12,429 nt of DNA from Nitrospinota bacterium (GTDB taxonomy: Bacteria > Nitrospinota > Nitrospinia > JACRGO01), in NCBI GenBank assembly GCA_016212295.1, contig JACRGO010000125.1, positions 1 to 12,429 of the forward strand, written 5' to 3'. Under the pieces are notes generated by a model that was not told where the DNA came from, did not search any database, and saw nothing but the letters and a program-made list of their open reading frames with translations. Of the stretch, positions 2,713-12,429 are shown piece after piece. The position numbers and the translations under genes are program-made. The stretch's first letter is position 1. Each line of letters begins with the position of its first letter.

Positions 2713-2811
2713 TTAAGTGACTAAAGTGAACTAAAGTGACTAAAGTTAAAAATCAAAGACGGCTTTTTCGCCTTAACTTTAGCTCACTTTAAACTTTAGT
2801 CACTTTAGTCA
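2713..2811. repeat. Long hairpin of 9-10-bp 'CTAAAGTGA' repeats between gatC and gatA
   Basis: The left arm (2713-2748) is made of near-tandem units CTAAAGTGA or ACTAAAGTGA. The right arm (about 2773-2811) is the complementary set (TTTAGTCAC, TTTAGCTCAC). Together they form a long imperfect stem with a loop of roughly 25 bases that includes GGCTTTTTCGCC. The arms match TTAACTTTAGTCACTTTAG on opposite strands. A related half-copy lies at 5805-5853. Any transcript running from gatC to gatA would carry this hairpin. Confidence 0.8.
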
Positions 2812-2818
2812 ATTTTAT

Positions 2819-10417: not shown

Positions 10418-10444
10418 AAAATTTGCGCCGAAAACACAAATAGA

Positions 10445-10507
10445 ATCTCAAATCTGAAACTTGAAACTTGAAATCTCAAATCTCAAATTTCAAATCTCAA
10501 ATCTGAA
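10445..10507. repeat. Tandem heptamer array (nine ATCTSAA-type units)
   Basis: Nine contiguous, perfectly phased 7-base units fill 63 bases: ATCTCAA, ATCTGAA, ACTTGAA, ACTTGAA, ATCTCAA, ATCTCAA, ATTTCAA, ATCTCAA, ATCTGAA. The consensus is A-Y-Y-T-S-A-A. It ends 21 bases before the WYL gene start. The same units build the arms of the elements at 11550-11670 and 12113-12240. Confidence 0.9.
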
Positions 10508-10528
10508 ATCCTGTACCGTGAGGCCCCG

Positions 10529-11503
10529 ATGAACAGACTGGATAAAATCCATCTCTTTCACGAAATCCTGAAAAATTCCCGCCATCCGGTTCCTCGCGGG
10601 GCCATCCAGGAAAGGCTGCAATGTTCCCGCTCCACGTTCAACCGGATGGTGGACGAGATGCGCGATTATCTTCACGCCCCGCTGGAATTCGACCGGGAAA
10701 GGAACGGGTGGCATTACGGCCAACAAGAGGGAAACCCCTATGAGCTTCCTGGATTATGGTTCAACCTCTCCGAACTCTACGCCCTTCTCGTCTGCCGCCA
10801 GTTGCTCTCGAATATAGAGCCGGGCTTTTTGGCGCCCCATATCGATCCCTTGAGAAAGCGTATTGAGGAGATTCTCGCGGCGCGGCGCCTTTATCCCGGA
10901 GAACTGGAGCGGCGCATCCGGATTCTCAGCATGGGGAAACGAACGTCCGCTCCGGACTCCTTTCAAACCGCGGCCCAGGCCGTCCTGAACCGCAAAAGGA
11001 TGAACATTGCTTACCGCGGCAGGGAAAGAGACGTCCCCACGGAGCGGGAAATTTCCCCCCAGCGTCTCGTTCATTACCGGGACAACTGGTATCTGGACGC
11101 CTGGTGCCACCTGCGAAAGGACTTGAGGAGCTTCTCCGTGGACCGGATCGTCCGCGCCGTAATTTCAGGGAAGAAGGCAAAGGAAATACCCGACGCCCGA
11201 TTGGATGCCCATTTCGCCGGGTCCTATGGCATCTTCGCGGGAAAGCCCAGGGGAACGGCTCGTCTCCTTTTTACCGGGGAGGCGGCGCGATGGGTGGAAA
11301 ACACCCAGTGGCATCCCGATCAAACATCGCGCCACACGGAAAAGGGGTACGAACTGACGATTCCCTATTCCGATTTCCGGGAACTGGTCCCGGATATCCT
11401 CCGCTTTGTTCCCCACGTCCGAGTCCTGTCTCCCGCCTCCCTGCGTGAGGAGTTAAGAAAGAGGTTGGAAAAGGGCTTGGAGGGAATGGAAAAGGAAAAA
11501 TAA
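10529..11503 (+). CDS. WYL-domain transcriptional regulator (HTH + WYL + WCX)
   Basis: The 324-residue protein has an N-terminal winged-helix DNA-binding region (about 4-60, with HPVPRGAIQERLQCSRSTFN as the recognition part) and a middle helical linker. The WYL domain (about 140-212) contains the literal motif W187-Y188-L189 in HYRDNWYLDAW and the conserved RSFSVDRI (200-207). A C-terminal WCX-type extension spans about 237-318. WYL proteins sense ligands, often nucleic acid or nucleotides, and regulate DNA-damage, phage-defence or CRISPR functions (DriD, BrxR, PafBC, CapW types). GAGG at 10520-10523 supports the ATG at 10529. A heptamer array lies just upstream, and a repeat element plus the HIRAN gene follow. 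No defence operon is visible, so its targets are unknown. Confidence 0.9.
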   Translation: MNRLDKIHLFHEILKNSRHPVPRGAIQERLQCSRSTFNRMVDEMRDYLHAPLEFDRERNGWHYGQQEGNPYELPGLWFNLSELYALLVCRQLLSNIEPGFLAPHIDPLRKRIEEILAARRLYPGELERRIRILSMGKRTSAPDSFQTAAQAVLNRKRMNIAYRGRERDVPTEREISPQRLVHYRDNWYLDAWCHLRKDLRSFSVDRIVRAVISGKKAKEIPDARLDAHFAGSYGIFAGKPRGTARLLFTGEAARWVENTQWHPDQTSRHTEKGYELTIPYSDFRELVPDILRFVPHVRVLSPASLREELRKRLEKGLEGMEKEK

Positions 11504-11549
11504 TTTTTTCACGATACCGCTTTTTGACACACTGCCCGGAGTAAAATGG

Positions 11550-11670
11550 ATTTCAGATTTCAGATTTCAGATGGATTCCTGAAGGCGATAGTGGTTCAAG
11601 GAACCTGAAATTTCAAATCTGAAAACCCGGCTTTATAATCTGAAATCTCAAATTTCAAATCTGAAATTTT
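11550..11670. repeat. Repeat element A upstream of the HIRAN gene
   Basis: This is a hairpin-forming element of about 121 bases. Its left end is TTTCAGATTTCAGATTTCAG, and its right end (11638-11665) is four in-phase heptamers of the ATCTSAA class that are largely complementary to the left. The centre has TTCCTGAAGG paired with TTCAAGGAA. Its last 66 bases (11605-11670) are identical to 12175-12240 of element B. It ends seven bases before the ribosome binding site of the HIRAN gene and contains TATAAT at 11634-11639. Confidence 0.85.
11634..11639 (+). promoter_or_regulatory. TATAAT -10 box inside repeat element A
   Basis: A perfect TATAAT lies 50 bases upstream of the HIRAN ATG. Seventeen bases before it is TTTCAA (11611-11616), a poor -35. 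The same box at the same position occurs in element B (12204-12209), so the repeat may supply the promoter for the gene behind it. Confidence 0.4.
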
Positions 11671-11689
11671 CTTTCTGGGAGGGCAAATC

Positions 11690-12100
11690 ATGAAAAGACG
11701 GGACCTGCTGAAAAACCTGTTCGCGTTTCCGGCGTTTCTTTTTTCTTTTGATTTTAAGAAAGAACCGGAGCCGAAAAAGCCTCAACCCCTCTCCGTCAAG
11801 GTCCCCATCGCCGGTTTCCAATACTACCAGGGGGAACAGATCTGGAAAAAATTGCGCAAGAATGACCCCCTGCGCCTGCAAAGGGAACCTGGAAACCCTC
11901 ATGATCCACAGGCCATTGAGGTCTTCTGGATGAACAAAAAACTTGGCTACGTCCCCAGGTCCGACAACCCCATTCTCGCCCAGCTCATGGACAAAGGCTG
12001 CGCCGTGAAGGCGGAGATATGCCGCTTGAAAAAGAGCGGGAACCCCTGGGAGAGGGTGGAGGCGCGGGTGGAGTTATGGCTGTGGGAAGAAAGGGCATAA
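11690..12100 (+). CDS. HIRAN-domain protein with Tat-like N-terminus
   Basis: The 136-residue protein has a single HIRAN domain (about 37-112): VPIAGFQYYQGEQIW, then LQREPGNPHDPQAIEVFW (63-80) and LGYVPRSDNPILAQL (85-99). HIRAN domains occur in HLTF/Rad5-type helicases, where they bind 3' DNA ends, and also as stand-alone bacterial proteins of unknown role. The N-terminus starts MKRRDLLKNLF followed by a short hydrophobic run to about residue 20, resembling a twin-arginine signal; no clear AxA cleavage site is seen, so it may stay anchored. GGGAGGG six bases before the ATG is a strong ribosome binding site. It lies between repeat elements A and B, 186 bases after the WYL gene. The domain call is firm; export is inferred. 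Confidence 0.87.
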   Translation: MKRRDLLKNLFAFPAFLFSFDFKKEPEPKKPQPLSVKVPIAGFQYYQGEQIWKKLRKNDPLRLQREPGNPHDPQAIEVFWMNKKLGYVPRSDNPILAQLMDKGCAVKAEICRLKKSGNPWERVEARVELWLWEERA

Positions 12101-12112
12101 AGGAAATCCCGT

Positions 12113-12240
12113 ATTTCAGATTTGAGATTTCAAATTTCAGATGGGTTCCTGAAGGTCCTCGTGGCCCAAGGAATCTGAAATTTCAAATCTGAAAACCCGG
12201 CTTTATAATCTGAAATCTCAAATTTCAAATCTGAAATTTT
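12113..12240. repeat. Repeat element B upstream of the S23-type gene
   Basis: This 128-base element is the second copy of element A. Its ends are imperfect inverted repeats of about 30 bases (ATTTCAGATTTGAGATTTCA on the left; ATCTGAAATCTC...ATCTGAAAT on the right). Bases 12175-12240 are identical to 11605-11670, and the TTCCTGAAGG...AAGGAA core is kept although the loop differs. It begins 12 bases after the HIRAN stop and ends just before the AGGAGG of the next gene. Confidence 0.85.
12204..12209 (+). promoter_or_regulatory. TATAAT -10 box inside repeat element B
   Basis: A perfect TATAAT lies 47 bases before the S23-type ATG, at the same place in the repeat as in element A. The upstream -35 match is poor. 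Conservation between copies could reflect recent duplication and does not by itself show selection. Confidence 0.4.
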
Positions 12241-12256
12241 TTTATAGGAGGGAGTC

Positions 12257-12429
12257 ATGACCTACAACCGTTTCGAGGACCTGCCCGTCTGGCAAAAGGC
12301 CATGGAATTGGCCCAAATGGCCTATAACCTGACGGAGACCGCGCCTTTCAAAAAGAGTTACAGCCTGCGGGACCAATTGGAAAGGGCCGCCCTTTCCGTG
12401 TCCAATAACATCGCCGAGGGTTTTGAACG
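12257..12429 (+). CDS. Four-helix-bundle protein of the S23 / 23S rRNA intervening-sequence family (partial)
   Basis: The gene runs off the right edge after 57 codons. The visible N-terminus, FEDLPVWQKAMELAQMAYNL and then LRDQLERAALSVSNNIAEGF, is the unmistakable signature of the S23/IVP family (full length usually about 115-130 residues). These proteins were first found inside intervening sequences of 23S rRNA genes and are now known as widespread, often multicopy free-standing genes of unclear function; they form pentamers of four-helix bundles. A consensus AGGAGG (12246-12251) lies five bases before the ATG. Repeat element B lies immediately upstream, the same arrangement as for the HIRAN gene. 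No rRNA sequence is nearby, so it is a free-standing copy. Confidence 0.92.
   Translation, partial: MTYNRFEDLPVWQKAMELAQMAYNLTETAPFKKSYSLRDQLERAALSVSNNIAEGFE

Follow-up and report, generated by a model that had tools for sequence, protein, structure and literature searches.

The window is a 12,429-nucleotide stretch of Nitrospinota bacterium DNA (assembly GCA_016212295.1, contig JACRGO010000125.1), which constitutes contig C77 of a 3.74-Mb genome assembled in 237 contigs and stops inside an S23 gene. Its last two kilobases carry three genes on the forward strand, namely a WYL/WCX regulator (positions 10529-11503; PF13280, E 5.5e-22, and PF25583), a HIRAN-domain protein (11690-12100; PF08797, E 4e-19), and a gene of the S23 four-helix-bundle (IVP) family (12257-12429, cut by the contig end; PF05635, E 3.5e-17, and TIGR02436), one of 18 S23 matches in the genome. 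As the original prediction stated, all three are preceded by heptamers of the ATCTSAA type; these are far above chance, and shuffled windows yielded no period-7 array.

The second and third of these sites are more than plain arrays. At the first, between the stop codon of a pilS-like kinase gene (10417) and the WYL start (10529), lies a one-armed array on the forward strand (10444-10510) made of 9.6 copies of the word CTGAAAT/CTCAAAT; no left arm was seen, its fold is weak (z -1.4), and it is read as a half element or relic. The other two sites are occupied by 122-bp inverted-repeat hairpins lacking an S23 gene, both on the forward strand and together flanking the HIRAN gene. Copy 1 (11549-11670) extends between the WYL stop and the HIRAN start and consists of a left arm, (GATTTCA)3, at 11549-11572, an inner stem-loop and a right arm at 11605-11669, while copy 2 (12113-12240), between the HIRAN stop and the S23 start, has its left and right arms at 12113-12142 and 12172-12239, respectively. 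They are direct copies of one unit, 92% identical overall and fully identical over the last 65 bp, with identity dropping sharply at the unit edges and folding z values of -2.8 (copy 1) and -5.2 (copy 2, RNA). The S23 gene of the window is thus preceded by a whole hairpin, not a single arm, and any downstream arm would lie past the contig end.

Compared with the genome, the 122-bp unit gave 56 matches, nearly all confined to its heptamer part; an exact 21-mer heptamer pattern matched 25 times, versus none for the reversed control pattern, and the ATCTSAA-type word is present at approximately 50 further sites. In being short and non-coding, with terminal inverted repeats and dispersed copies, both window hairpins resemble MITEs. 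The right half of the unit also holds CTTTATAATCT, a good -10-like box (11624-11636 and 12194-12206), so that the unit could supply a promoter or leader to the gene that follows. Elsewhere in the window (2715-2815), a short period-9 array, AAGTGACTA, with an inverted partner about 30 bp further on, precedes a gatA-like gene; its word resembles that of another S23 locus, L017.

The original prediction took the three adjacent, co-directional genes as a possible functional module, acting on nucleic acids or in defence, that the repeats could have spread or assembled. Among defence-related models, the PADLOC candidate PDC-M03B matched the HIRAN part of the HIRAN protein, and the WYL protein was hit by WYL models associated with CRISPR loci. 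Nevertheless, the module is extremely improbable and its proposal is largely refuted. The same-genus genome G001 keeps the T2SSF-pilS neighbourhood and has other genes 3' of pilS, with no WYL, HIRAN or S23 gene and no heptamer array there. For the WYL protein, G001 has no counterpart, and homologues of at most 30% identity only were found, in 8 of 30 relatives; the HIRAN protein was unmatched in 58 of 60 relatives, with weak partial matches in the other two. The block was to be regarded as coincidental if relatives showed no co-occurrence of the genes or if the repeat lay at scattered intergenic sites: relatives show no co-occurrence, the repeat is found at many other intergenic sites, and S23 genes occur in many unrelated operons. 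Neither a functional link nor a conserved neighbourhood is therefore supported. What survives is the suggestion that the repeats could spread, as arms of S23 elements or as S23-less hairpins; that they assembled a three-gene module does not. The WYL gene, whose membership in an element is unsupported, and the HIRAN gene, a neighbour or possible passenger, are regarded as bystanders, with the ATCTSAA dialect of the element having put two hairpins and an S23 gene into the gaps around them. Given the PADLOC and WYL-model matches, WYL and HIRAN may conceivably form a two-gene defence pair.

Inverted heptamer arms around S23 genes

ATCTSAA was considered as a common word of all S23 genes and rejected, being mostly absent around them. 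A word-free search for period 7 revealed that most S23 genes have arrays on both sides, the right one being the reverse complement of the left, and that each S23 gene of the source genome has its own word (e.g., TTAGCGG, GTTCACG, GTCATTG, AATTACG and GAACATC). Flanks were scored by the best ungapped match between the 300 bp upstream and the reverse complement of the 300 bp downstream, with a cut-off of at least 13. Of the 18 S23 loci of the source genome, 17 were testable and 13 of these reached the cut-off, the 99th percentile at random gene-sized places being 12.0 (n = 300). At loci of other species, 44 of 77 scored at least 13, compared with 9 of 77 when the flanks were matched in direct orientation and a single one of 140 same-locus controls; with the threshold raised to 15, 37 of the 77 loci and no control passed. 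The 80 loci retrieved were those nearest to the query subfamily and hence represent an uneven sample of the S23 family, and about 40% of the cross-phylum loci fail the test, through decayed arms or by chance. According to record titles, the positive loci span about a dozen phylum-level groups, including Desulfobacterota/Deltaproteobacteria, Verrucomicrobia, Lentisphaerae, Planctomycetota, Gamma- and Betaproteobacteria, Bacteroidota, Ignavibacteria, Clostridia, Elusimicrobia, Caldithrix, Caldiserica and Peregrinibacteria. On cyanobacterial plasmids, inverted arms were found at 7 of 10 S23 loci.

The best period in arm pairs was 7 in 51 of 64 cases and 8 in seven, and the arms lie mostly within some tens of bases of the S23 reading frame. 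A full unit accordingly reads as a 7-bp array, the S23 gene and the same array inverted, and measures approximately 430-520 bp. AG prevails over CT in the arms of 57 of 64 S23 loci. The stricter rule of NAG in every heptamer is strong in S23 arms, yet it was discarded as universal, applying to only 9 of 22 hairpin words.

Arm word and S23 protein vary together: the word is common to 9 of 10 protein pairs with at least 70% identity, to 31% of those with 55-70% and to about 1% of those below 45%. Word-sharing pairs include different genera and higher groups, although in L104/L106, a pair near the top, the flanking genes are shared too and ordinary synteny makes up part of the score. Such co-variation may mean that S23 recognises the word, or that the unit is inherited or transferred as a whole; the sequences fit either.

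At operon-like sites, 62 of 69 S23 units have the same sense as both neighbours. None was found inserted in a 23S rRNA helix; their neighbours are protein genes (rnf, cmr, cas, nrd, tra, cysD/cysN, carA/carB and two-component genes). In full elements, folding predictions pair the ends into a stem whose loop holds S23 (z -7.2 and -7.0); as the units stand in intergenic gaps, mostly inside operons and in sense, the operon mRNA would carry a long stem of this kind. In Pseudomonas and Modicisalibacter, two gammaproteobacteria, S23 lies between apparent cysD and cysN genes (L115 and L137) with differing heptamer words, and three cyanobacterial plasmid loci (L278, L280 and L282) have S23 units within cas6-cas4 and cmr2-cmr3 gene runs. 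A published list of CRISPR-linked genes includes the 23S rRNA IVP (PMC10910872), which could be such a hitchhiker; S23 genes inside operons, here cas and cmr, should not be read as functional partners of those operons.

Paralogues, matching sites and S23-less arrays

The S23 paralogues L011 and L012 of the source genome (86% protein identity) share 81% homology, which starts and stops inside the arms, with none beyond; in a decayed paralogue pair the likeness likewise begins in an arm. At an rnf site, an S23 unit of 523 bp is present in the source genome. G015 has just 4 bp at this place between the aligned flanks, G011 carries a different heptamer hairpin, and G019 has no S23 unit or hairpin. 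Comparable differences were found on cyanobacterial plasmids. An S23 gene lies between cmr2 and cmr3 in Picosynechococcus 7003 and is absent in 7002 (90% identical); another lies behind traM in Nostoc C052 and CCNP1411 and is absent in C057 (95% identical), with Nostoc ATCC 53789 having an S23-less hairpin at this point; and a third lies between nrd genes in N. edaphicum and is absent in Calothrix NIES-4105 (85%). Judged from these sequences, arms and S23 behave as one unit, and the comparisons record its presence or absence, leaving the direction of gain or loss unfixed. For locus L009 versus G001 a clean empty site was not obtained, because the upstream genes differ, and no clear target-site duplication appeared at the junctions read by eye. 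Parent-like units carry S23 and not a transposase.

Earlier authors proposed that heptamer arrays are sites bound by a translational or transcriptional regulator, as for the TAACTGA repeats of Beggiatoaceae (PMC4679880) and the heptanucleotide pairs of Geobacter (PMC2700814), and arrays standing directly before start codons agree with this. As a general account it is very unlikely here, given that many unrelated words in one genome, inverted pairing and whole-unit presence or absence between relatives agree more closely with a mobile element; the arrays might still affect regulation as a by-product.

Array densities were obtained from sampled stretches. In a sample of 398 kb, 28 tandem arrays had period 7, versus 0-3 for every other period besides 14. 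With a looser cut-off, 60 of 75 arrays were intergenic in sequence that is 84% coding, which fits the description of cyanobacterial-type STRR. An inverted partner scoring at least 13 was found for 44 of the 75 and a direct partner for 21; at a score of at least 14, 29 of 41 inverted partners lie 18-136 bp away, whereas direct ones are scattered. Where an S23-less array has an inverted partner, the two mostly form a short hairpin, and S23 was the only gene found between gene-sized inverted array pairs. Relatives bearing S23 had 106 arrays in 660 kb, versus none in 381 kb of ten S23-free relatives, a contrast confounded by ancestry because the two groups belong to different families. In the S23-bearing G004, no array was found in the 20 kb readable (40 of 60 kb were masked). 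The intergenic gap at 2480-2625 of L010 and its counterparts in G015 and G019 contain differing heptamer words (GTCATTG, GACTTCT and TGACTCC), which suggests repeated insertion or fast word turnover.

These data also bear on an origin without a dedicated protein, in which replication slippage and template switching produce the hairpins of intergenic DNA, quasi-palindrome correction keeps the arms alike, and S23 is a trapped passenger. Slippage would account for a private word common to both arms of a locus and differing between loci, for variable array lengths, and for one intergenic site having different words in different relatives. It is nonetheless quite unlikely, as it leaves unaccounted for S23 being the sole gene within gene-sized inverted array pairs of the 398 kb, the lack of arrays in the 381 kb of S23-free relatives, a word that tracks the S23 protein across genera, and paralogues that carry arms and S23 together.

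A candidate S23 element

The reading preferred here, to which a probability of roughly 0.78 is assigned, is that small mobile units, with S23 (PF05635, an Avd-like four-helix bundle) as their sole gene, have the heptamer repeats as terminal arms. At the level of sequence, it draws on the inverted arms, the word particular to each element, the apparent joint movement of arms and S23, the co-variation of word and protein, and arrays that track the S23-rich genomes among those sampled. The S23 proteins match structure 2GSC, a ring of five four-helix bundles (PMC4990558). Such a pentameric ring may recognise the heptamer array of its own unit, in the form of RNA or single-stranded DNA, and, bound to the words of its own arms, may help to spread or protect the unit, with catalysis presumably supplied in trans by the host or another enzyme. 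Against this reading stand the lack of any known or seen catalytic protein, S23 itself having no recombinase motif, and the observation that the S23 protein of the Coxiella IVS is seemingly not made (PMC4990558). A wider proposal is tentative and is given slightly less than even odds: S23 elements would be minimal mobile elements widespread in bacteria, with a protein-word code diverging by lineage and with spread via operon transcripts, and would be the hidden source of the unexplained bacterial heptamers.

Units might instead move as RNA by means of a reverse transcriptase (RT) acting in trans, with S23 behaving like the Avd protein of diversity-generating retroelements. S23 and Avd belong to the same family of four-helix-bundle pentamer folds. 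The sense orientation in operons and the stable RNA stem are consistent with retro-mobility, as is the presence of RT genes in 5 of 7 S23-rich versus 6 of 41 S23-free relatives. Conversely, no RT gene was found in the S23-rich G019 and G004, both incomplete genomes, no RT adjoins the elements, and the single RT of the source genome, on contig C142, is at none of the 18 S23 places. The association is only loose, and RT was accordingly rejected as an obligate partner; retro-mobility is rather unlikely, reverse transcription of the units being possible but weakly supported. A weak S23 match beside a reverse transcriptase (G020:C47:4673-5847) is probably the Avd of a diversity-generating retroelement.

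Should S23 units be mobile elements with a protein-word code, two old puzzles would join and become directly testable: the role of the very common S23/four-helix-bundle proteins, and the origin of intergenic heptamers, known in cyanobacteria since 1990.

Comparison with known systems

Cyanobacterial heptameric repeats (STRR) were reportedly described by Mazel in 1990. These repeats, together with the GGGAATC repeats of Xanthomonas and Nostoc, TAACTGA of Beggiatoaceae and MTYCTGA of Geobacter, resemble the present arrays in being intergenic 7-bp tandem arrays, often in convergent inverted pairs. About 70 such pairs are described in Xcc (PMC4692102), and the Geobacter sites are paired on opposite strands (PMC2700814). 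Such heptamers are reported to be generally not associated with mobile elements (PMC4692102), and no exchange mechanism was found for those of Beggiatoaceae (PMC4679880). Unlike the present analysis, these papers drew no link to S23. In the literature found, heptamers (PMC4679880, PMC4692102, PMC2700814) and S23/IVS (PMC4990558) are handled separately, and no paper tying S23 genes in general to heptamer arms was encountered, with subscription journals mostly outside the coverage.

MITEs and REPIN/RAYT, too, are short inverted-repeat units that are dispersed and have a related coding element. The present units differ in that their arms are period-7 arrays, the word differs per family, no target duplication was seen, and S23 takes the place of a DDE or HUH transposase as coding partner; Pfam and NCBIfam searches found no HUH (Y1) domain in S23. 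In contrast to Avd-containing diversity-generating retroelements, S23 units have no adjacent RT, template or variable repeat.

There is a close likeness to the S23-bearing 23S rRNA IVS of Coxiella and Leptospira, in which terminal inverted repeats pair into a stem whose loop holds an S23 reading frame, approximately 430 nt in all. The Coxiella IVS measures 428 nt, has a 28-bp stem, and carries tandem heptamers, (GACAGAT)2-3, directly before the S23 start codon (PMC4990558). The present elements encode the same S23/IVP reading frame (PF05635, TIGR02436) and, where full, have stem-forming inverted repeats. They differ from the IVS in lying between protein genes, in having heptamer arrays as both arms, and in being many per genome with many words, accompanied by S23-less hairpins. 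The IVS already share gene, stem and even heptamers with the S23 elements, which would, if the protein-word code is true, be a kind of their own.
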